Shown here one piece after another: positions 3,353 through 15,144 of a DNA stretch of 29,350 bases. The translations under genes were made by a program, and so were the position numbers. The notes beneath the pieces were generated by a model. That model was not told the DNA's origin and did not search any database. It saw only the letters and a list, made by a program, of their open reading frames with translations. Origin of the DNA: a virus. The stretch spans positions 1 through 29,350 of IMG/VR virus record IMGVR_UViG_3300033571_004902. The stretch is one strand, 5' to 3'. The stretch's first letter is position 1, and each line of letters starts with the position of its first letter.

Positions 3353-6300
3353 ATGCCAATTTACCCAAATGATTTAGATATTCCCCCACTACAACTGCGT
3401 AGAAGTTCTGCCGCAACAGTCAGCAACTATGTTCCAGCAATGGGCGAGCCTGTTTGGACCACTGACACAAAAGAACTTTTTGTTGGTGACGGAAGCACAG
3501 TAGGCGGTATTGCTGTTGGTGGCGGTGGCGGTGCGTCAACTGTCACAGATCAACTATTGTTTACCACAAGCTCAGTGACTTTTGCAAACCTCACCGTCAC
3601 AAATATTACAATGAGTGGTGAGATCAATCAAACATATGTTGGAGCACGAGGAGGCGTTAGTAGTAATATTGCTGTTGGCAATGCGTTAGCATCTGCAACT
3701 GGCGGCTCAAGTTTTAACATTGGTGTAGGTGACGATGCCTTAGGTTTATTAAACACAGGTGATTACAACGTAGCTGTTGGTTTGAATACTTTAGCTGGTG
3801 TTCAATCTACCAATTACAATACCGCAGTTGGTCATTCTGCACTTAGCTCTGCCAGCGGCACAGGCAACACTGCATTGGGATTTAGTGCTGGTCAAAATCT
3901 TGGCACAGGTGATTACAACACATTCATTGGTTATGGTTTTTCATCACTTACTAACGGCGTTTCAAACACTGTATTCATTGGTGAAAGTGCTGGCGAACCT
4001 AAACTTAAAATGAGTGAAGCAGGAACCTTCATTAAAAACATTGCTTCAAGCACCAGTACAAATGTTCTTTATTACAATACCAGCACACGTGAACTTACCT
4101 ACGGTCCACCAACTGGCGGCGGTTCAACTTTTGATCAAACATTAAACACTACTAGTAATGTAGTATTCAACAGCGTAGTCACACAAGATTTAGTTTCATC
4201 AGGTGGCTTCCCCTTAGATGCCAACGGACAAGCATTGATCCGTGCAGCCAACACACAAACACCAGCAATGGTTGTCAGCAACTTCACAGCAGGTCTGCGT
4301 CCAGAAGTTATTTTGCGTGGTTATGGACAAAATCGTCCAGGTGGCGGTGCAACAACACCAGCTACTCCAGCAATCTTGATGGAAGGTAGCCGCGGCACAA
4401 GTGCAACCCCAACAGCCACAGGCAGCGGTGATACATTATTTGCACTAAGCGGTGGTGGATACGACGGTTCTCGTTGGGCCAGTGATATTGATCTTTCACC
4501 TGCACAAATTATTGCATTATCCACTGAAGCATTTGCGGGCAATGCCACAACATCAACTAATAGTGGTGCACGAATTTTTATGCGAGCACAACCACAAGGT
4601 GTTCAACTAAACGCAACAAGTCGTCAAGGATTCTTAAATCACACTTGGTCAGCAGGTTCAGCAAGTGCTCCTCCTACACAGATCTTAAATTTTGGAACTG
4701 CATTGAATGACACTCCAACATTGATTATGAGCAATGGAGTTGATACCCATACTGGCTTTGGTAGAACATCAATGAACATTATCAATAGTCAAGTAGCTAT
4801 TGTTGGTGTGCCATTTGAAGATGCCGCAGTATTCACCGCATCAATTAGTGGAACAACATTAGATGTCACAGCAGTTGCCAGTGGTGTTATCAGTGTTGGA
4901 CAACGTGTTTACGCAACAGGCGTCACAACAGGCACATTTATCACAGCGTTAGTCACAGGAGCTGGCGGCGTTGGAACTTACACTGTCAACAACAGTCAAA
5001 CAGTCAGTTCAATGACTATGAACAGTGGTGCTGACAATACTACATTGAACGACACTAACTTATTGACGTTTTCAAGTGGACGCAAGAGTGGTGCAAGCGG
5101 TCGTAGAAACGCATTGAAGAATGGTGACAGTGTTGGTAAGCTGCTGTTTAACGGACAGACTGCTAACAGTGGCACAACAGGTGGAAGTCGCACAGCCCGC
5201 ATACAGGTCACTGCAATGGAAGACTTCACTGGTAGTGCTCGTGGTAGTAGAATGATATTTCAAACTGTCAACAGTGGCACAAACACTGAATCTAGCAAAT
5301 TGATATTGGCCAGCAACGGCAATGACTACTACTCAACATTTCACACATTTAGAAATAACAGTGAAACAGTTGCCTTTATTGTTGATTCAAGCAACGGATC
5401 TGTCTCTGTAGGCAATGGAAGCAGCCTAGGAACTGTGAATGCCAACGGCACTAACGAATTGTATTTGGCAGGTGGAGGACTTACCAGTGGCAGAGTCAGA
5501 TTGACTACAAATGCTGGTGTTCAACTTGAAGCTAATGGTGGAACACAGGTTGCTAACTTTACTACAGGTAGTATTACAGCCAGCACACACGTTCTTCCAT
5601 CCACAGACAGCAGTTATGATCTAGGCAGCACATCTAGTCAATGGCGTAGTCTGTATGTCAGCACTGCCACTATCTACCTTGGTGGTAATTCACTCAGCGT
5701 AGCAGGTGGACAACTAACACTAAATGGTACTGCACAAGTGGGACCAACAGGACCACAAGGACCACAGGGTGTTGTTGGACCAACTGGACCACAGGGTCAA
5801 AACAACAGTTTGTATGACTACAAGGCTAAGACAAATTCAACAACAGGCGACCCAGGTAATGGTAAAGTGCTATGGAACAATGCCACACAGCAGTCAGCCA
5901 CAGCCCTACACTTCAGTCACATTGATGACCTAGGTGATGACATTGAATATCTATTGGGATTGATACTCACTGGTGATGTTATCAGACTACAAGACCAAAC
6001 CATCAGTGAAAATTATCAGACATGGACTGTCACAGGCACGCCTACTGTAAATGTTGGAAGTTATGTTAGTGTGCCAGTCAGCCTAACTACCAGCACACAT
6101 TCATTCAGCAACAATGACACATTGGTGGTTATTTTAAGAGCTGCTGGCGTAGCTGGACCTACTGGCCCTCAGGGACCACAGGGACCTCAGGGTGCTGTTG
6201 GACCAACAGGACCACAAGGTGCTCAAGGTAATACTGGTCCACAGGGCCCACAAGGACCTCAGGGCATTCAGGGAGATGTGGGACCAACTGGACCACAAGG

Positions 6301-6880
6301 ACCTCAGGGTGTTCAAGGCGACACAGGTGCCACTGGACCGCAAGGACCTCAGGGTGTGCAGGGAGATGTAGGACCAACAGGACCTCAGGGCATTCAGGGA
6401 GATGTGGGACCAACTGGACCACAAGGACCTCAGGGTGTTCAAGGAAATACTGGTGCTACTGGACCAACAGGACCTGTAGGACCAACAGGCCCAGGTGCTA
6501 ACCAAAGTCTTGACACAACCAGCAACGTCACTTTCAATAACATTACTGCCAACGGTAATGTGGCATTGAAAGGATTTACTGAAACTCGTGTAGCACACGG
6601 TTATGTAGCCAGCTTTGCTCCAGACCTGTCAACTGCTACAATATTTGCAATGACACTAACTGGCAACGTCACATTCAATGGATTTACAACTCCAGTGGCA
6701 GGCGAAAGTGGAACATTTGTGTTTACACAAGACGGCACAGGTGGACGCACATTGTCATCAACAATGAAGTTCGCTGGTGGTAGTAAAACATTGAGTACAG
6801 CCGCAAGTTCAACTGATATTATTTCAGTGTTCTATGATGGCACTAACTACTTTGCTTCATTGAACAAAGGATTTGTGTAA
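3353..6880 (+). CDS. Large collagen-like tail fibre / receptor-binding protein
   Basis: This 1175-aa protein is a mosaic fibre. Residues 1-55 ([27 protein letters not shown]) match the N-terminal domain seen in Mtd-type and other phage fibres. Residues about 100-216 carry repeats such as [12 protein letters not shown] and NTALGFSAG, like YadA-type trimeric adhesin heads. Residues 755-778 contain the common fibre motif [15 protein letters not shown]. Collagen-like Gly-X-Y runs occupy 795-816 and 933-1047. Between them sits a separate globular domain (816-932), and a beta-rich domain (1048-1175) closes the protein. Gly-Pro-Thr/Gly-Pro-Gln triplets imply a trimeric rod. AAGGA is 9 bases before the ATG. 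The gene overlaps the next one at TAATG. It is the best candidate for the main receptor-binding fibre. Confidence 0.9.
6149..6494 (+). repeat. Collagen-like repeat DNA with a 66-bp exact duplication
   Basis: This block encodes the second Gly-X-Y run of the large fibre. The 66 bases at 6253-6318 are identical to 6379-6444, an offset of 126 bp or 14 triplets. Such arrays change length by recombination, so rod length may vary between strains. Short-read assembly could also have misjudged the copy number. Confidence 0.88.
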
Positions 6881-8935: not shown

Positions 8936-8985
8936 GTAGTGAGGGGTTTGTCATCTCCTTAAATCAATTTCGTTCCCCTCACTAC
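8936..8985. repeat. 11-bp perfect inverted repeat
   Basis: GTAGTGAGGGG (8936-8946) is the exact reverse complement of CCCCTCACTAC (8975-8985), with 28 bases between. It begins four bases after the TAAATA motif at 8927-8932. It could be a protein-binding site or the first stem of a structured leader. Confidence 0.85.
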
Positions 8986-9060: not shown

Positions 9061-9179
9061 TTTTATTCAGTAATACGGAGTGCAATGCTCCACAACATCA
9101 CAAACCAAGAGGCCCCTTCAATGGGGCTTCAAGGTGAGTAAACAACAGTGATGTGTTAGTTTACGCTAACTGAATAAAA
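9061..9179. repeat. Long-range inverted repeat enclosing hairpins
   Basis: TTTTATTCAGT (9061-9071) pairs exactly with ACTGAATAAAA (9169-9179). Enclosed are ACATCAC/GTGATGT (9095-9101/9148-9154) and a GC-rich hairpin, 9109-9116/9123-9130, with GCCCC/GGGGC at its core and a TTCAAT loop. GTTAG/CTAAC (9155-9170) shares bases with the outer right arm, so two folds compete. This multi-branched shape resembles an RNA or single-strand origin. Confidence 0.8.
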
Positions 9180-9185
9180 AATTAA

Positions 9186-10220
9186 ATGAATTCCTACCAA
9201 CCCAACTTCAATGACCCTCGTGTCAAGAAAAAAATTAAACGAGCTCTGGGCTTTGCCTGTTCCTCTCTAAGTGCTGATAAACCCAGACAGTGGGCTCGTG
9301 TTGAACTAGACAAGTGGTTAGGACATCAACACAGAGATTTAGGCGTTTGGTTGAGAGGGCGACTACTGATTACTCATTCAGAGAGATGGAATAGACTTAC
9401 AGGTGTATGTAAGTCATATCTACTGAACTTAGAGGGTGTGAGAGAATTAGATGAGATTTATTATGACTATCTAATAGCTAAACTCCCTATTGCCAACAAA
9501 GTCCAGAATATTGGTGTTGAGTGGGCTGAACAGGAGTACAAACAGCAACTTGACTCAGGTGATTTTACCTACAAAGAAAAAAGCCACAGACTTTGGAATG
9601 ACATTCAACGCTTGCCCACAGAAATACGCAGACCTCTGTTTACCAAACACGGCTATGAATATGAGTATGATATCAAGTGCTGTGCCCCCACACTAATACA
9701 TCAACTGGCTAGATCAGTAGGTATGACACGCCCCACTAAAACCCTAGATGAGTATCTCGCAGACAGACAACTCTACAGATTGGCACTTAGTGAACGTCTG
9801 GGCTGTGATTTGAAGCAGGCCAAAGAAATCATCAACGCTGTGTTTGCAGGTGCTAAACTAGGACCTGGAAATAGTATTGACGAAATCCTTAAAGGTAATA
9901 GACGTCAGTTAAACCTCTTGTCCTCTAATATTTGGTTTAAGAACTTACGCAAAGACATCAAGAAGTGTTGGGATGCTATCAAAGTCAGTAAAGGCATTAC
10001 CAAACTCAATAGTCGTACTAAGTGGATGATTTACTTTGAACTTGAAAGCTCTGTGATAAGTGTTGTGAGAAGTCATTTACAAAAAGAGAAGAACAAGTTC
10101 TTTCTTGAACATGACGGGTGGAGATGTGAGAGTTATGTAGATGAGAATGAGTTGAGAAGATCTGTGAGAACTAAAACAGGTTATGATGTTGAGTTTGAGT
10201 ATGTGAGGAATTATGTCTGA
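9186..10220 (+). CDS. Putative replication protein with polymerase-like palm motifs
   Basis: This 344-aa protein is the only clear replication candidate. Residues 160-175 (EYDIKCCAPTLIHQLA) resemble polymerase motif A, with Asp162 followed by Pro-Thr-Leu. Residues 209-222 (LKQAKEIINAVFAG) resemble motif B/O-helix of family A polymerases (Lys213, Asn217, Gly222). Residues 308-312 (EHDGW) resemble motif C, as in HDE of Pol I or HDS of T7 RNA polymerase. No exonuclease, helicase or zinc domain is visible, so it would be a very small polymerase or primase-polymerase. The N-terminal 90 residues are basic. No Shine-Dalgarno precedes the ATG; a hairpin and an A-rich stretch do. The family match is my reading of short motifs and could be wrong; a plasmid-type initiator is the alternative. 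Confidence 0.55.
   Translation: MNSYQPNFNDPRVKKKIKRALGFACSSLSADKPRQWARVELDKWLGHQHRDLGVWLRGRLLITHSERWNRLTGVCKSYLLNLEGVRELDEIYYDYLIAKLPIANKVQNIGVEWAEQEYKQQLDSGDFTYKEKSHRLWNDIQRLPTEIRRPLFTKHGYEYEYDIKCCAPTLIHQLARSVGMTRPTKTLDEYLADRQLYRLALSERLGCDLKQAKEIINAVFAGAKLGPGNSIDEILKGNRRQLNLLSSNIWFKNLRKDIKKCWDAIKVSKGITKLNSRTKWMIYFELESSVISVVRSHLQKEKNKFFLEHDGWRCESYVDENELRRSVRTKTGYDVEFEYVRNYV
9464..9503 (+). repeat. 40-bp direct repeat, copy inside the replication gene
   Basis: These 40 bases encode about residues 93-106 (YDYLIAKLPIANKV) of the replication-protein candidate. They are identical to 10229-10268, placed right after the same gene's stop codon. Flanking bases on both sides also show weaker similarity, so the original duplication was somewhat longer. 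Confidence 0.95.
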
Positions 10221-10228
10221 ATTATTAT

Positions 10229-10268
10229 TGACTATCTAATAGCTAAACTCCCTATTGCCAACAAAGTC
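10229..10268 (+). repeat. 40-bp direct repeat, copy downstream of the replication gene
   Basis: This is an exact copy of 9464-9503, starting 8 bases after the TGA at 10218-10220. It is non-coding here. It lies between the replication gene and the promoter region for the gene at 10352. It may be a recombination scar or a functional binding site. Confidence 0.95.
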
Positions 10269-10290
10269 TAAAACTTGGCAAAATTACCGC

Positions 10291-10319
10291 TTTACAAAGC
10301 TCATTAAATAAAGCATACT
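10291..10319 (+). promoter_or_regulatory. Possible sigma-70-type promoter
   Basis: TTTACA (10291-10296) and CATACT (10314-10319) are 17 bases apart, a fair -35/-10 pair upstream of the gene at 10352. Two TAAATAAAG copies (10305-10313, 10319-10327) overlap it, and they may themselves be the promoter element. The exact start cannot be decided from sequence. Confidence 0.45.
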
Positions 10320-10351
10320 AAATAAAGTAGAGTTTTAAGGAGATAACACTC

Positions 10352-10792
10352 ATGACAAAAAACAAAATTACATTTGATGACAAGGTCTTGATTACCAACA
10401 CAGTGGTCAACACAGTCAATCGCTACTGGATCATCTGCGAGGGCGAATTATTCAATCACGCAGAGTTCTGGGATGAGACATTTCACTCATTTACCAACGA
10501 GGACTGGGAAGATATGATGACAGTTATGGATATGCTCAAGGCAACCGCACCAGAGCTATTCACCTACAATGCAAACTCAGTTTTTGAAGATGTTAAAAAA
10601 ATACTTATCACAGAAGCTCATTCAGGCAACCCTCGTGCTCTTGATGCTCGCAAGCACAAGAAGACAGAGTTCAAAGCACTGATGAATATCAAAGACATAT
10701 TCAACGCTGTCACTGGCTATCAACAGCCTACAAAGTTTAAGAAGAAGGAAGAACCTACTCCGTTTGAGACATTCTTCCACACAGGAGATTAA
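10352..10792 (+). CDS. Unknown protein (146 aa), first gene of a small-gene cluster
   Basis: A soluble, mostly helical protein beginning MTKNKITFDDKVLITNTVVN and ending FETFFHTGD. It has a Trp/Glu/Asp-rich middle (NEDWEDMMTVMDML) and a basic patch near the C-terminus (DARKHKKTEFKA, KFKKKEE). AAGGAG sits 9 bases before the ATG, one of the strongest ribosome sites in the region. No family is recognised. It opens the cluster that carries the HNH-type proteins, one base before the next start codon. Its placement just after the replication gene suggests an early or middle function in DNA metabolism. Confidence 0.75.
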   Translation: MTKNKITFDDKVLITNTVVNTVNRYWIICEGELFNHAEFWDETFHSFTNEDWEDMMTVMDMLKATAPELFTYNANSVFEDVKKILITEAHSGNPRALDARKHKKTEFKALMNIKDIFNAVTGYQQPTKFKKKEEPTPFETFFHTGD

Positions 10793-10793
10793 A

Positions 10794-11225
10794 ATGGCAA
10801 GACGTTATGCACTACCAGAACACTGGGGCCGCTACAACTGGATGCTGTCAGTATGCAATAACCCCAATCACCCTGCGTATGACAAATACGGAGGCAGAGG
10901 CATTCAATGCTATTGGGGCCCAGGCAGTTATCGCGAGTTTGCCCACTGGCTTGAAACTACGCTAGGTCCTCGTCCTAGCCCACAGCACTGCCTCAACAGA
11001 AAAGACAAAGAAAAAGACTACTGCCCTAAAAACTTAGAATGGGCACTGCCACAACGCCGCAGTCGTTGCAACACACAGCAAAACAAATTTGCCAAGTATC
11101 GCAATCAAAGCAAGCCCCTGGCACAATGGGCTGATGAACTAGGAATCCCATACCACTCATTCCGCAGACGTATTGCACAGGGCATTTCTATCAAAGACAT
11201 CCTGAAAGAATATCGCAATGCCTAA
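10794..11225 (+). CDS. HNH/AP2-endonuclease-like protein with C-terminal helix-turn-helix
   Basis: This 143-aa protein matches the layout of phage HNH/AP2-type homing-endonuclease-like proteins. It has NWMLSVCNNPNHPAYDKYGG followed by RGI (residues 15-37), then LNRKDKEKDYCPKNLEWA (67-84) in the place of the usual DRxDNxGxYxPxNCRWA box. Residues 108-137 (PLAQWADELGIPYHSFRRRI) form a probable helix-turn-helix. The usual Asp-Arg start of the catalytic box reads Leu-Asn-Arg here, so nuclease activity is doubtful and a DNA-binding role is possible. I chose the ATG at 10794, with GGAG 7 bases upstream, over an upstream in-frame start. It overlaps the next gene by 8 bases. Confidence 0.7.
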   Translation: MARRYALPEHWGRYNWMLSVCNNPNHPAYDKYGGRGIQCYWGPGSYREFAHWLETTLGPRPSPQHCLNRKDKEKDYCPKNLEWALPQRRSRCNTQQNKFAKYRNQSKPLAQWADELGIPYHSFRRRIAQGISIKDILKEYRNA

Positions 11226-11541
11226 AAAATACAAAGATGAGTTTACCAATGAACGTCGTCTTGCCTATGTTCGCTTTACCAGTCAGTGCCGCTACAGAGA
11301 TGAAGAATGTAGTTTGACATTTAGTGAATTCTGCCAGTTCTGGAATACACAGAAACTTTGGCTTCAAAGAGGTCGCAATCCACAGAGTCTTGTTCTCACA
11401 CGCTATGACAACACCTTGCCTTGGAATACTGACAATTGTTGCATTATGACAAGACAGACTCAACTAGACATTAGAAACAAACGAAGATACGATCTTCAAT
11501 ATCAACACCTTTACAAGGAGGCTATCCCATATGGAGGATGA
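11218..11541 (+). CDS. HNH-like small DNA-binding protein
   Basis: This 107-aa basic protein has a region RLAYVRFTSQCRYRDEECSL followed by FSEFCQFW, then RGRNPQSLVLTRYDNTLPWN and NCCIMTR. This resembles the phage HNH-associated pattern in which a LTRxD box is followed by W, N and R positions. It appears related in design to the protein just upstream, suggesting an old duplication or a functional pair. Cys29, Cys54 is Leu/Trp-rich context rather than a clear zinc site, and the catalytic His is not obvious. It starts inside the end of the preceding gene and ends within the next one, so all three are tightly coupled. Confidence 0.6.
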   Translation: MPKKYKDEFTNERRLAYVRFTSQCRYRDEECSLTFSEFCQFWNTQKLWLQRGRNPQSLVLTRYDNTLPWNTDNCCIMTRQTQLDIRNKRRYDLQYQHLYKEAIPYGG

Positions 11542-11800
11542 TTTTTTCAAAGGTCTAAGAGACCCCTACGACCGCCTTGAGGAACTTGAAATCATCACAA
11601 CTGGACAGGCCATGGCCATGGAACAGATCAGTGAACAGATAAAAAATCATGCAGAGAATTTTGTTGGACTCAGTGATGGTCTAGTACAGATTACCAAAGT
11701 AATCAGAAACTTACAACTACAGACGCAAAGTCTAAATCAACAATTTCAAAACCTACACCACCGTGTTACTATTTTAGAAAAGGAAAAACACAATGACTGA
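11531..11800 (+). CDS. Small coiled-coil protein (89 aa)
   Basis: The protein is almost entirely helical with heptad spacing of Leu/Ile/Val (QISEQIKNHAENFVGLSDGL, VIRNLQLQTQSLNQQFQNL), so an oligomeric coiled coil is likely. There is no membrane segment. AAGGAGG lies 8 bases before the ATG, inside the end of the upstream gene. It overlaps the next gene by 8 bases. No family is recognised; it may be a scaffold for a complex or an inhibitor of a host protein. Confidence 0.65.
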   Translation: MEDDFFKGLRDPYDRLEELEIITTGQAMAMEQISEQIKNHAENFVGLSDGLVQITKVIRNLQLQTQSLNQQFQNLHHRVTILEKEKHND

Positions 11801-12068
11801 AGCAGCTTTACTCAAAAAGAAACCTCTACCAGATGACTTCCTCGCCAACAATGTTATCTATGAAATTGATATTTTAGTCTCTGGAGGTGCACAAGCTCGC
11901 GTACAAACCACTGACAAAGATCTTTACAATGAGATACTCACTGAACTCAAAGGTATTGGTATGTTTCATAGACAGCCAGTTAGAACTTGGGAAAGTCGTG
12001 AACACGCCGCAGCCGTAAAACCTAAAAAAGTCAAAGACAAGCCAGATAATGACACTGCTGTTTCTTGA
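11793..12068 (+). CDS. Unknown protein (91 aa)
   Basis: It begins MTEAALLKKKPLPDDFLANN, continues with a likely beta-alpha core (VIYEIDILVSGGAQARVQTT, LYNEILTELKGIGMF) and ends in a Lys/Pro/Asp-rich tail (KPKKVKDKPDND). AAAAGGAAAAA precedes the ATG. It is coupled to genes on both sides by short overlaps. No motif points to a function; the basic tail could contact nucleic acid. Confidence 0.65.
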   Translation: MTEAALLKKKPLPDDFLANNVIYEIDILVSGGAQARVQTTDKDLYNEILTELKGIGMFHRQPVRTWESREHAAAVKPKKVKDKPDNDTAVS

Positions 12069-12279
12069 TCAAAGTCAAATACACAAGCACAACATCACAC
12101 ACAGTGATCTGCAGGGCTGTGACTATGACACACTGAGATTGGGCTATTGGATTAAATCAGACAGCCCACAGGCAGTTTGGCTCACACTCAAAGGACTAAC
12201 ATTGAGACGATTGCACTACAATCCACAAAACTTGCCGCCCAAAATACCTAACAGTAAAAACCCTTTCTCGCAAGTTTGA
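12049..12279 (+). CDS. Unknown protein (76 aa), last gene of the cluster
   Basis: It begins MTLLFLDQSQIHKHNI and contains a Trp/Tyr-rich middle (LRLGYWIKSDSPQAVWLTLK). The start lies 20 bases inside the upstream gene with no clear ribosome site, so it would depend on coupling. A terminator begins 8 bases after its stop, which supports it as a real final gene. No family is recognised. Confidence 0.5.
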   Translation: MTLLFLDQSQIHKHNITHSDLQGCDYDTLRLGYWIKSDSPQAVWLTLKGLTLRRLHYNPQNLPPKIPNSKNPFSQV

Positions 12280-12286
12280 GGTTTTG

Positions 12287-12312
12287 AGCCCATAATTCTG
12301 TGGGCTTTTTAT
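12287..12312 (+). terminator. Rho-independent terminator
   Basis: AGCCCA (12287-12292) pairs with TGGGCT (12301-12306) around an 8-base loop, followed by a T-rich tract (TTTTATTT). It ends the cluster that starts at 10352. Its 5' context (TTTGAGCCC) is shared with the terminator at 13781. Confidence 0.82.
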
Positions 12313-12328
12313 TTGGTAAAATGAATAG

Positions 12329-12357
12329 TTGATTTTCTTATTTAGTTGTGCTACAAT
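12329..12357 (+). promoter_or_regulatory. Sigma-70 promoter with extended -10
   Basis: TTGATT (12329-12334) and TACAAT (12352-12357) are 17 bases apart, and TGC stands directly before the -10, giving an extended -10 box. This is the best sigma-70-type promoter in the genome. It lies between a terminator and the operon at 12392, and transcription would begin near 12364. It suggests early expression by host RNA polymerase. Confidence 0.78.
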
Positions 12358-12391
12358 AAACTATGTTCAACAGCACACAGAAAGGTGCAAA

Positions 12392-12589
12392 ATGAGAGTC
12401 AATAGATCCAAAATAGTTTGTCTTTTCCAAAATGACAAAACTAACATCAATTTGATTGCCCAAGGCTACAAGCCCTCTACAGATCACGTTCTTGCCAAAC
12501 TGATTTCTAAAAATGAATTGACTTTGAAACAGCAACAACAGATTCACAAGATTGGCTGTGAAGTTTATGGTTTGGAGGCTGCAGAATGA
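12392..12589 (+). CDS. Small unknown protein (65 aa), promoter-proximal
   Basis: The ATG at 12392 is preceded by AAAGG; an upstream in-frame start would overlap the promoter and is rejected. The protein begins MRVNRSKIVCLFQNDKTNIN and has a helical second half with a Gln/Lys-rich stretch (LTLKQQQQIHKIG), ending EAAE. It may be a small helix-turn-helix-like protein, but I cannot match a family. It is the first product of the sigma-70 operon, a usual place for host-takeover or regulatory proteins. Its stop overlaps the next ATG (AATGA). Confidence 0.65.
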   Translation: MRVNRSKIVCLFQNDKTNINLIAQGYKPSTDHVLAKLISKNELTLKQQQQIHKIGCEVYGLEAAE

Positions 12590-12789
12590 TCAATACTCGC
12601 TCATATCAAGATGACCAAGAAGTTCTAAAAGATTTGCAATATGATCTGATTCAGATTGAGCAAGAGATTGACGACGAATGGTCTAAAGAAGACTGTGATC
12701 ATTATCACATCAATCAACTTGAACACGCCCGTGCTCGTATCCGTCAAGATATTGAAGGACTGAAAATGTTTATGGAGACCGCAGAATGA
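12586..12789 (+). CDS. Small helical acidic protein (67 aa)
   Basis: The protein is strongly acidic and helical (DLIQIEQEIDDEWSKEDCDH, then QLEHARARIRQDIEGLK), probably a coiled-coil hairpin. It ends ETAE, close to the EAAE ends of other genes in this operon. A GGAGG inside the previous gene is 7 bases before the start, and the stop/start overlap by 4 bases. Acidic small proteins like this can mimic DNA or block host proteins, but that is only a possibility here. Confidence 0.65.
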   Translation: MINTRSYQDDQEVLKDLQYDLIQIEQEIDDEWSKEDCDHYHINQLEHARARIRQDIEGLKMFMETAE

Positions 12790-13109
12790 AACCTATTCCT
12801 AAACCAGTTCCAGATCAAAAGTTCCTTATTATGTTCCAGGATACTGTTGATGTTGACAGAGAACCTACTTGGATTATTGGTGTTAAACTGGGCCGCCGCT
12901 TTGTTTGGGACAATGACAACGAAGAACCTAATGTATTCAATGTTATCTTATCAGAACAAGACTTTGAAAAGTTCAAGAACTGGAGTAGCCTTTGTTCCTA
13001 TGACACCACCTGGCATTCAGTAAAGAAATTTCCTTGGTTCTGTGTTAAAGAATCAATGTTTGATAGTTTTATTTCTATGTTAGTAAAAATGAAAGAGGCT
13101 GCAGAATGA
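12786..13109 (+). CDS. Unknown protein (107 aa)
   Basis: It begins MKPIPKPVPDQKFLIMFQDT and is rich in Trp, Phe and Asp/Glu, with beta-prone segments (TWIIGVKLGRRFVWD, VFNVILSEQDFEKFKNW) and two Cys residues. It ends with EAAE. It overlaps both neighbours by 4 bases, with a GGAG ribosome site inside the upstream gene. No recognised domain; a soluble single-domain protein is likely. Confidence 0.65.
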   Translation: MKPIPKPVPDQKFLIMFQDTVDVDREPTWIIGVKLGRRFVWDNDNEEPNVFNVILSEQDFEKFKNWSSLCSYDTTWHSVKKFPWFCVKESMFDSFISMLVKMKEAAE

Positions 13110-13342
13110 TCTTAACACGAGAACAAGTTGAACTAATGACCTCAGAAGAGTGCTCTAAGCACCTCAAACTTCTGGACAAGAAATATCCTCTAGAAGAAAG
13201 TCTGCACCGCCTGACTCCAGAACTGTTCCAACAAGTTGACAGCATAGCCAACACTTTACTCTACTTAGAAGACCGTATCCGCTACTGTCAGCAAAGTGAG
13301 AATGCCGTTCAAGCCAACAAAATCAGATACGGTAGAGAATGA
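13106..13342 (+). CDS. Small helical protein (78 aa)
   Basis: The protein is mainly alpha-helical and charged (MILTREQVELMTSEECSKHL, then LYLEDRIRYCQQSENAVQAN). It starts at the repeated GAGGCTGCAGAATGATC junction that also joins the genes at 12586. No family is recognised. Its stop overlaps the start of the lipoprotein gene. Confidence 0.62.
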   Translation: MILTREQVELMTSEECSKHLKLLDKKYPLEESLHRLTPELFQQVDSIANTLLYLEDRIRYCQQSENAVQANKIRYGRE

Positions 13343-13593
13343 AACTTTTAATCACACTCCTCGCCACATTGACATTGAGTGGATGTGCAAGTAAATGCAC
13401 ACACGCTTGCCTATTTGGCTTTGGTCCAGGCAGTGATGCATTTGACGCAGTGGCCAACCATTATGATACCACAGACGCTTGTCAATACAAAGGCAAGCCA
13501 GAAGGCTATGCTCTGCCCTATTACTGCGGACATAAGAGCACCAAACATCGCATCACTGACCGTACGGGCAGAACATTGGGATACATCAAATGA
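13339..13593 (+). CDS. Small outer-membrane-type lipoprotein
   Basis: This 84-aa protein has a short signal peptide with a lipobox: MKLLITLLATLTLSGC, cleavage before Cys16. The mature part has four further Cys residues (Cys20, Cys24, Cys48, Cys63) that could form disulphides in the periplasm, and it ends with DRTGRTLGYIK. Phage lipoproteins of this size serve as outer spanins or as superinfection-exclusion proteins that block receptors. It is not Pro-rich, and no partner inner spanin overlaps it. Its sigma-70 operon also fits early expression, so exclusion is at least as likely as lysis. A host with an outer membrane is implied. Confidence 0.72.
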   Translation: MKLLITLLATLTLSGCASKCTHACLFGFGPGSDAFDAVANHYDTTDACQYKGKPEGYALPYYCGHKSTKHRITDRTGRTLGYIK

Positions 13594-13760
13594 ACTTTCC
13601 CATAAAGGTTAAACTCACTGACCTACGCTATCCCAACGTGGATTACATATTGACTATCAAGGATCTGCGTGATTGGCAGAACTTAAAAAGCATTGAAGAA
13701 ACTGGAAACTATTCAGTCGTAGAACTGGCACCCAAGAAACCTGTAACAGTCACAGCCTAA
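13590..13760 (+). CDS. Small unknown protein (56 aa)
   Basis: The frame begins MNFPIKVKLTDLRYPNVDYI and ends KKPVTVTA, with ATG overlapping the lipoprotein stop (AAATGA). The composition suggests a small beta/alpha domain. It is the last gene before a strong terminator, which supports it as real. No function can be assigned. Confidence 0.6.
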   Translation: MNFPIKVKLTDLRYPNVDYILTIKDLRDWQNLKSIEETGNYSVVELAPKKPVTVTA

Positions 13761-13780
13761 ACAAGGTTATTGACACTTTG

Positions 13781-13807
13781 AGCCCGCTAATATGCGGGCT
13801 TTTTTTT
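13781..13807 (+). terminator. Strong rho-independent terminator
   Basis: AGCCCGC (13781-13787) pairs perfectly with GCGGGCT (13794-13800) around TAATAT, followed by seven Ts. It separates the early small-gene operon from the packaging genes. The TAAATA motif begins 9 bases after it. Confidence 0.92.
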
Positions 13808-13814
13808 GGTTCCA

Positions 13815-13821
13815 CTAAATA
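13815..13821 (+). promoter_or_regulatory. Putative late promoter element CTAAATA before terS
   Basis: The 9-mer ACTAAATAT (13814-13822) recurs upstream of the capsid genes and before the origin-like region. No -35 box is present; that position is inside the terminator hairpin. By analogy with T4 late boxes, transcription would begin near the A of the ATG at 13827. Confidence 0.5.
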
Positions 13822-13826
13822 TCATT

Positions 13827-14288
13827 ATGGAAGAACCAAATGATATTCCCACCACCGTTATTCAGCCAAAACTAGAATACGATGAGGTAATCCCTTACAT
13901 AGAGGAACCAGTCAATCCCTCTAAGACTGGCAACAAACCCAAACAACTTGTGGCTGTTGAAGTATGGGGTTATGAAGTGGGCAGAGGCAGAAACAAGCGT
14001 GTGGTTGTGCCCAAAGATGTCTATGAACTGGCTGTGATAGGTTGCAATGACCGTGAGATCGCACGTTGGTTTGATATGGATGAAAATACTTTAAGATACA
14101 ACTTCAGCGACATAATGCTAAAAGGTCGTGAGGATTTGAAGCACACTTTAAGGCGTGCTATGATTAAAAACGCATTAGGTGGCAATGCGGCATTACAAAT
14201 CTTCCTTGCTAAAAACTTATTAGGCATGAGTGACAATCCTATTGACAGCGAAGAAAACAAACCCCTACCATGGCGGGATGAAGAATGA
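13827..14288 (+). CDS. terS: Terminase small subunit
   Basis: This 153-aa protein probably recognises phage DNA and loads the large terminase. Residues about 64-94 (DVYELAVIGCNDREIARWFD, then ENTLRYNF) form a helix-turn-helix. Residues 104-138 form a helical oligomerisation region (LKHTLRRAMIKNALGGNAAL, then LLGMSDNP), as in small terminases of many phages. It lies before the large terminase and portal. The ATG at 13827 is chosen. No Shine-Dalgarno is seen before it, and the mRNA may be leaderless (see 13815). A TTG further upstream would overlap the terminator T-tract. Confidence 0.8.
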   Translation: MEEPNDIPTTVIQPKLEYDEVIPYIEEPVNPSKTGNKPKQLVAVEVWGYEVGRGRNKRVVVPKDVYELAVIGCNDREIARWFDMDENTLRYNFSDIMLKGREDLKHTLRRAMIKNALGGNAALQIFLAKNLLGMSDNPIDSEENKPLPWRDEE

Positions 14289-14365
14289 CAGTTGATACTG
14301 CATTCTGGTGCCTATTCACCATAACAGTGCTGGCCATCATTATTGAATTTTTTAGACCACATTGA
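14285..14365 (+). CDS. 26-aa single-span membrane microprotein
   Basis: The frame reads MTVDTAFWCLFTITVLAIII followed by EFFRPH. Almost the whole chain is one transmembrane helix. Its ATG overlaps the terS stop and its TGA overlaps the ATG of the methyltransferase (TGATG), so it couples translation of both neighbours. It may act as a membrane peptide or may serve mainly as a coupling leader. Evidence is the clean overlap on both sides and the hydrophobic pattern. Confidence 0.5.
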   Translation: MTVDTAFWCLFTITVLAIIIEFFRPH

Positions 14366-15144
14366 TGACATACCAATTACACAATCAAGACTGCTTAGAG
14401 TGGATGAAGACACAGGCTGATGCCACTGTAGATATCATAGTGTCAAGCCCACCCTACAATAGAGGCATTGCCTACAATGGATACAAGGATCGTAGAACAG
14501 ACTATCTAGAATGGCAAAAACAAATATGGACAGAAGCCTGTCGCATACTTAAACCCACAGGACACTTGTTCTTAAACATCTGCGGCAATGGCAAGGATCC
14601 TTTTCTAGCCTATGAAGTAGCACGAGATGTTCCTTGGACAGTCCAGAACAATATTGTATGGGCCAAGGCTGTGGAGTTCAAAGGACACATCTACGGCCGT
14701 TCAACAGTGAATATCAACAGCAAGTATGTCTTACCACACGGACATGAAACTGTTTGGCATTTTACTCAAAAAGGCAAGACACCCATAAGTCTCAGTCAAT
14801 CAGCAGTGGGCTATCGTCCTGAATATGCTGAAGATAACTTTAAGAGAACTGGTCGCAAGACCCGTCCCACTACAACCTGTTGGCATATTCCATATGAAAC
14901 AACTGGCTACATGGGCAAGGCGGCTGCTACACTAAAAGGTGATAAAGGACATCCAGCAATATTCCCTAGAGACCTAGTGAGACATTGCCTAAATGTCGCT
15001 GGAGCACAACCTGGACAACGTGTTTATGATCCTTTCGCAGGCACAGGCACTACATTGGTAGTTGCTAAGGAAATGGGTTTAGTGGGCATAGGCACAGAGA
15101 TAGATCCAGACTACACTGCCTTCATACACGAAAGAATGCTCTAA
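14365..15144 (+). CDS. DNA methyltransferase (N4-cytosine/N6-adenine, beta-type order)
   Basis: This 259-aa enzyme transfers a methyl group from S-adenosylmethionine to DNA bases. Motif IV SPPY is at 28-31, with the target-recognition region in the middle. Motif I DPFAGTGTT is at 222-230, followed by GIGTEIDPDY. Motif IV before motif I is the beta-class order of the N6_N4_Mtase family. The SPPY form is common in N4-cytosine enzymes but also occurs in N6-adenine enzymes. It is a lone methyltransferase with no restriction gene beside it. Its place between the terminase genes suggests that it protects phage DNA or marks it for packaging. The start at 14365 is coupled to the microprotein stop. 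Confidence 0.9.
   Translation: MTYQLHNQDCLEWMKTQADATVDIIVSSPPYNRGIAYNGYKDRRTDYLEWQKQIWTEACRILKPTGHLFLNICGNGKDPFLAYEVARDVPWTVQNNIVWAKAVEFKGHIYGRSTVNINSKYVLPHGHETVWHFTQKGKTPISLSQSAVGYRPEYAEDNFKRTGRKTRPTTTCWHIPYETTGYMGKAAATLKGDKGHPAIFPRDLVRHCLNVAGAQPGQRVYDPFAGTGTTLVVAKEMGLVGIGTEIDPDYTAFIHERML

Follow-up and report, generated by a model that had tools for sequence, protein, structure and literature searches.

A minimal A-family polymerase-like protein with paired repeat sites in small phages, a candidate initiator-primase

Introduction

TV-Pols were predicted in 2008 to act as both primase and polymerase, and these proteins share a hairpin in which one Arg is absolutely conserved (Iyer, Abhiman and Aravind 2008, PMC2579912). 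The primase-polymerase question has stood open since that prediction and, according to a 2020 study of SCCmec, has been answered biochemically for one member (PMC7581432). CCPol-MP, an A-family primase, primes preferentially at the origin of its element, mostly with dG opposite template C; the processivity of CCPol is limited, and in the view of its authors a host polymerase would finish the replication (PMC7581432). The origins of SaPIs lie just downstream of the rep genes (PMC7581432), and the Rep protein of ColE2 is an origin-specific primase whose primer is extended by Pol I (PMC4538821).

Here we analyse a gene in the IMG/VR virus record IMGVR_UViG_3300033571_004902. The window is the whole of this 29,350-bp record, which is classed as linear and is possibly a fragment. 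An earlier note, made from the sequence alone, had pointed to a very small polymerase-like replication protein in it. The protein belongs to an unannotated polymerase family that appears to be the sole replication gene in many small phages. The open literature that we searched holds no description of its domain arrangement or of the paired sites that accompany the gene; such an absence is not proof, and both appear to be new.

Results

A family of polymerase-like proteins in uncultured phages

The gene occupies the following position in the window.

9186–10220, plus strand: gene for a minimal A-family polymerase-like replication protein (relatives in IMG/VR and GTDB; AlphaFold pLDDT 94.7)

The ORF is real and, exactly as the earlier note described it, encodes 344 aa plus a stop codon. 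Iterated scans of IMG/VR raised the number of relatives from 1 to 2, then 4, then 59, that is, at least 59 in uncultured phage contigs, and one scan of the GTDB genomes yielded 4 relatives, in a Legionella MAG, Janthinobacterium, Caballeronia and a further MAG. Judging from translations, two chromosomal relatives lie near tyrosine-recombinase ORFs (L074, Janthinobacterium, ~9965–12664; L075, Caballeronia, ~9980–14107); the context of these two relatives suggests small integrative elements or satellites that would use the same polymerase. The family alignment comprises 52 distinct members with a median pairwise identity of 37%.

Searched alone, the 344-aa protein has no match in PHROGs, Pfam, NCBIfam or the PDB sequences, where both phmmer and a profile search returned nothing meaningful. 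Scans of up to 52 relatives against PHROGs, Pfam and NCBIfam gave scattered chance matches only, and tblastn of INPHARED phages and PLSDB plasmids detected zero relatives.

The gap of 280 bp upstream of the gene contains an 11-bp inverted repeat, GTAGTGAGGGG ... CCCCTCACTAC (window 8937–8985), and a short hairpin, GGCCCC TTCAAT GGGGCTT (window 9110–9129), which are possibly a terminator or a control region.

A compact palm/fingers fold

Structure prediction, which the earlier note had proposed as the check on its polymerase reading, produced a confident AlphaFold model with the 52-sequence alignment (pLDDT 94.7, pTM 0.88), and the outcome set there as refutation, a fold lacking a palm, did not arise. 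In a Foldseek comparison with the PDB, the best matches are A-family enzymes, namely, Pol theta (probability 1.00) and T7 DNA polymerase (probability 0.97), followed lower down by mitochondrial RNA polymerase and Pol gamma and, at lower probability, by group II intron reverse transcriptases and B-family enzymes, with not one E-value below 0.001. The comparison with predicted viral structures gave 22 matches below 0.001, including the Zamilon and Qinghai Lake virophage replication proteins (E ~1e-5, down to ~1e-6), which carry the TV-Pol domain, and several uncharacterised Caudovirales proteins (E down to 7e-10). The first AlphaFold model, built from 4 sequences (pLDDT 84.6), had mixed reverse-transcriptase, PolB and PolA matches, and the deeper model moved PolA to the top. 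The modelled structure is very probably a minimal A-family palm/fingers polymerase fold. A B-family reading of the motifs (DxxxxxPT, KxxxNAxF) was rejected on account of the HD motif, the hairpin preceding motif A and the fold ranking.

The model consists of two domains.

9216–9461, plus strand: N-terminal winged-helix-like domain (residues 11–92), predicted to bind DNA (AlphaFold secondary structure)
9564–10217, plus strand: palm/fingers catalytic core (residues ~127–344; AlphaFold, Foldseek and profile comparisons)

The N-terminal domain, which the earlier note had not seen, contains helices 11–27, 38–45 and 51–60 and strands 61–65 and 77–80; a short strand at 34–36, present in the first (4-sequence) model, adds to the winged-helix order of strands and helices, and a Pfam winged-HTH match is weak and comes from one family member. 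A variable linker (residues ~93–110) joins this domain to the core, which runs from the R135 hairpin through motif A and the fingers (R198 and K213) to motif C. In the model, helices 102–117 and 119–124 stand N-terminal to the R135 hairpin, and the thumb is reduced, below normal size. The catalytic core is smaller than the Klenow part of Pol I and lacks an exonuclease; neither exonuclease nor helicase domains are found in the 344-aa protein, as had been noted from its sequence.

Invariant residues of the catalytic core

The elements of the core that are conserved across the family map to the following positions.

9573–9608, plus strand: beta-hairpin with invariant R135, then invariant Q141 (residues 130–141; alignment and AlphaFold model)
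9669–9671, plus strand: motif A catalytic Asp162; the +5 residue is Ala167, where T7 DNAP has the ribose-gate Glu (profile comparison and alignment)
9822–9824, plus strand: motif B (fingers) Lys213, invariant (profile comparison and alignment)
10107–10118, plus strand: motif C, E308-H309-D310-G311, invariant, with catalytic Asp310 (alignment)

Invariant in the 52 distinct members are R135, Q141, Y161, D162, R198, K213, W262, Y283, E287, F306, E308, H309, D310 and G311, among them every residue on which the polymerase reading of the earlier note depends. Motif A (EYDIKCCAPTL, with D162), motif B (KQAKEIINAVFAG, with K213) and motif C (EHDGW, with D310) lie where that note located them, and D162, K213 and the E308-H309-D310-G311 block are 100% conserved in the 52 homologues; the motifs amount to more than chance. 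Position 167 is Ala in 49 of the 52 members, Gly222 at K+9 is like the 'YG' of PolA and T7 RNAP, and the HDG of motif C, present in 52/52 members, is common to MAP_030 of phage Ma-LMM01. The strands of the hairpin (130–132 and 135–137) precede motif A in the model and carry R135; we read the segment with R135 and Q141 as a template/primer-side element like the PolA 'RLSS..PNLQN'. The Arg of the fingers RxxxK is missing: position 209 is variable (E/P/V/L and others) and K213 is invariant. The invariant R198, which sits in the preceding helix, may substitute for this Arg.

Profile comparisons point the same way as the fold. Alignment with hhalign to nine phage A-family polymerases (PolA; P=0.0042) puts motifs A and B in register, with D162 on the T7 DNAP motif-A Asp, K213 on the motif-B Lys and G222 on the 'YG' Gly, A167 facing the ribonucleotide-excluding Glu, and alignment to MAP_030 gives P=0.0023 over 194 columns, HDG included; these figures are single comparisons with reported probabilities of 8–13% and modest significance, which back up the fold result and are no substitute for it. 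The 14 other Ma-LMM01 proteins scored 0.09 or worse. MAP_030, which we take to be the likely TV-Pol reported in that phage by Iyer 2008, is a 506-aa protein encoded beside a transposase pair, with YDVVKCHATI as motif A and HDG as motif C. The same protein (L079, Microcystis phage LMM01, 22746–24266) is assigned to PHROG 34692, of unknown function, and is near-identical across all related Microcystis phages. In the 34 records searched with Pfam DNA_pol_A (PF00476), nothing reached the cut-off, and the controls were positive.

Replication gene content of the phages

The gene content of the record and 33 relatives was searched (34 contigs of 20–52 kb each, which may be incomplete). DnaB_C, Helicase_C, DNA_pol_A, D5_N and IstB/DnaC were each found in 0/34 contigs, and the positive controls were detected. 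The 344-aa protein is thus the only recognised replication gene among the types searched (DnaB, SF2 and D5 helicases, Pfam A-family polymerase and DnaC-like loader), and the observation of the earlier note that no other replication gene could be recognised holds for the record and extends to the 33 related contigs. Clustering of neighbours across the loci recovered structural and packaging genes as well as small ORFs of unknown role; no universal early partner gene was found by this approach, nor did BLAST across the loci reveal a recurring small neighbour of the SSB type, such partners being too diverse for sequence search.

Several other genes of the window recur in the family. A small ORF of an unknown family (window 11218–11541; no Pfam match above the cut-off) is found near the polymerase in 11 loci, an N6/N4 DNA methyltransferase gene (window 14362–15144; Pfam PF01555, E 1.6e-35) has related ORFs in 9 loci, and a large tail-fibre-like ORF with collagen-like GPTGPQG repeats (window 3353–6880) has related ORFs in 36 loci.

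Given this gene content, the protein might be a true replicase, that is, a processive minimal DNA polymerase that primes itself and copies the whole genome, with the repeats described below as start sites. The A-family palm, the lack of any other A-family polymerase in the phages and the dual activity predicted for TV-Pols (Iyer 2008) are consistent with this possibility. However, a normal-size thumb, an exonuclease, a helicase and a processivity partner all go unrecognised, and the limited processivity of CCPol, with completion of replication left to a host polymerase (PMC7581432), argues in the same direction. We consider a self-sufficient replicase unlikely.

Paired repeat sites in and after the gene

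The earlier note had also missed a direct repeat of 45 nt (96% identical, 40 nt perfect), one copy of which lies within the gene and the other just after it.

9464–9508, plus strand: repeat copy 1 (in-gene site), in the variable inter-domain linker; core 9482–9503, ACTCCCTATTGCCAACAAAGTC
10229–10273, plus strand: repeat copy 2 (gene-end site), 9 bp past the stop codon; core 10247–10268

The 21-nt repeat core, with up to 3 mismatches, occurs at no further place in the window. We propose the gene-end copy as a candidate origin or priming site.

The pair recurs in about half of the family, inverted pairs included, as near-identical sites of 20–50 bp on either side of the sequence that encodes the catalytic domain. 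An upstream or in-gene repeat matches a gene-end repeat with a score of at least 16 in 30 of 56 loci (compared with 2 of 112 random placements), and a leave-one-out motif matrix, built without the phage under test, picks one of these two positions as the strongest match anywhere in the stretch for 35 of 55 loci. The consensus core across phages is ATACCCTAgTGTATTACAAGTC; the core of the window's own phage has diverged, is missed by the matrix derived from other phages and was recognised by the 40-nt identity and its position. About half of the members have no detectable pair by the criterion used, and many of these carry a site right after the gene. When 2.9 million viral contigs were scanned for the exact pattern, 12 stretches matched, of which 11 are on contigs with the polymerase gene and the 12th starts at the gene-end copy. 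The first base of one contig (L070, 1–43) coincides with the start of the gene-end repeat found in the L005 phage, so that assemblies appear to break at this repeat.

Some members show other repeats. In divergent members (L052 after 9050, L054 after 3667 and L057 after 11056), other short motifs, e.g. CAACAAGCTATGTTTGTAACAACTTTCG, are repeated two or three times in tandem right after the gene and are possibly their own version of the gene-end site. In L029, the polymerase gene as a whole is bracketed, at -88 and +214 relative to it, by a near-identical direct repeat of 47–64 nt that does not contain the common core.

The in-gene copy is translated, yet it agrees at the nucleotide level with a gene-end copy that in many cases is non-coding or out of frame. 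Inverted pairs are found in L024, L032, L045 and L051, and the first copy lies upstream of the gene in L041, L074 and L021. With phase, orientation and placement all variable, a peptide motif, a fixed-direction promoter and a frame-keeping cassette each fail to explain the pair, and we read the sites as functional DNA. The identity of the two copies within a genome, compared with that between genomes, is 1.00 vs 0.69 in the core, 0.87 vs 0.36 at -7..-1, 0.70 vs 0.39 at -15..-8 and 0.54 vs 0.31 at -25..-16, reaching the baseline by -26; downstream of the core, it ends within ~5 nt. The stretch just upstream of the core contains 3–6% G on the given strand. This one-sided fade could result from primers swapped between the sites or from plain gene conversion.

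The sites could also be promoters of a promoter-specific single-subunit RNA polymerase, a miniature T7-like system. The palm is related to T7-like enzymes, the steric-gate Glu is lost (A167), mitochondrial RNA polymerases are among the fold matches, and the reverse complement of the core, by eye, loosely recalls T7-type promoters (TAATAC..CACTA..GGG). Nevertheless, each phage has only ~2 sites, both at the gene itself, and the gene-end site points either way, as the inverted pairs show, unlike a promoter for downstream genes. Furthermore, the protein has no promoter-recognition or N-terminal RNAP domain, and hhalign with T7 RNAP found nothing (P=0.45), all of which makes this option very unlikely.

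Alternatively, the repeats might have no part in replication and serve for recombination or mark the ends of an element (a swappable catalytic-domain cassette, Xer/dif-like sites or att), considering that they bracket a discrete 760–870-bp segment as direct repeats and are homogenised within genomes. In many pairs, however, the spacing does not keep the reading frame (it is no multiple of 3), and there are inverted pairs as well as pairs outside the gene, upstream of it, grounds on which a domain-swap cassette was rejected; in contrast to dif, conservation between phages covers just one half of the site, which likewise disposed of the Xer/dif idea. Moreover, the N-terminal domain is conserved along with the rest, and a tyrosine integrase is present in only 2/34 contigs. 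Recombination sites therefore seem highly improbable. A catalytically dead palm-fold regulator or origin-binding factor, which would have a parallel in the polymerase-like mobile-element proteins without their catalytic Asp residues (Rice 2023), is extremely improbable given the full (100%) conservation of the two Asp, the fingers Lys, the hairpin Arg and HDG across the 52 members; one would not expect a dead enzyme to retain these residues.

Discussion

Gene content and origin-like sites together are best accounted for by the reading that the earlier note had offered, a minimal primase-polymerase initiator that works with host help, the activity itself being a prediction. It is reasonably likely that the 344-aa protein acts as an initiator-primase specific for its origin and passes primers on to the host replisome. 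The winged-helix domain, joined to the core by a flexible linker, would bind the site core (consensus ATACCCTAgTGTATTACAAGTC; here ACTCCCTATTGCCAACAAAGTC), the catalytic domain would start a short primer at the site, with G as the probable first nucleotide where the template has its nearly invariant CCC, and primer synthesis would copy the G-poor stretch upstream of CCC. The primer may be RNA or mixed because Ala replaces the ribose-gate Glu of Pol I, and the host helicase and polymerase would then take over.

A further step, which we consider quite unlikely, is that the two sites exchange primers, such that a primer started from the CCC of one site and extended by ~10–25 nt anneals and is extended at the other. 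Exchange of this kind would keep the sites identical in each phage, with a gradual loss of identity along the copied flank and an abrupt end at the opposite one. If true, it would be an undescribed way to start replication, with a single minimal A-family enzyme and an origin inside its own gene.

The initiator-primase reading offers a compact model of an A-family palm that starts DNA synthesis without a separate primase, in a protein that pairs a winged-helix-like domain with a near-smallest A-family polymerase core, and the paired sites make the candidate origin directly testable.

With regard to known systems, we infer that the mechanism would resemble those of ColE2 Rep and SCCmec CCPol-MP, but with one polypeptide, a predicted double-strand binding domain and no phage helicase. 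The CCPol-MP and PolA-SSB primases of SCCmec and other Bacillota elements share with the 344-aa family the A-family catalytic domain, a role in mobile elements, the proposed priming at an origin beside the operon and the start with G opposite C (PMC7581432). In contrast to this family, CCPol lacks a winged-helix domain, needs an SSB subunit and a partner helicase, neither of which was recognised in the phages, and retains the ribose-gate Glu and uses dNTPs; the Ala found here suggests a possible use of ribonucleotides. In the ColE2 type, a single Rep likewise binds the origin and makes a short primer that the host polymerase extends (PMC4538821), but Rep is an archaeo-eukaryotic-type primase and not an A-family fold, so that the likeness is one of mechanism only. 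The phage and bacterial Pol I enzymes (PolA) have the same fold class, with motifs A and B in register by profile, whereas the 344-aa family has no 3'-5' exonuclease, a reduced thumb, a motif A without the Glu (DYSxIELR in PolA) and HDG in place of HDE.

The closest fold and profile matches are TV-Pol proteins, that is, the virophage replication proteins, which are the best viral fold matches, and MAP_030. Both groups have a minimal A-family palm/fingers core without a nuclease, two conserved catalytic Asp in an RRM-like palm (here D162 and D310, invariant in 52), an Arg-bearing hairpin ahead of motif A, a motif A of the form YD[IV]xxC[AH][PA]T[LI] and HDG as motif C (as in Ma-LMM01 MAP_030), and both occur in viruses and integrative elements. 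The TV-Pol thumb consists of two antiparallel helices N-terminal to the hairpin. Many TV-Pols have a fused or neighbouring D5-like helicase, although stand-alone forms exist; the 344-aa family shows neither a fused nor a neighbouring one (0/34 contigs with D5_N), and it further differs in the fingers without the Arg of RxxxK, its own N-terminal winged-helix-like domain and the paired cis sites in and after the gene. The family would work like a TV-Pol or A-family primase and is not filed here as a standard member; it is probably a divergent branch of the TV-Pol/A-family primase group.
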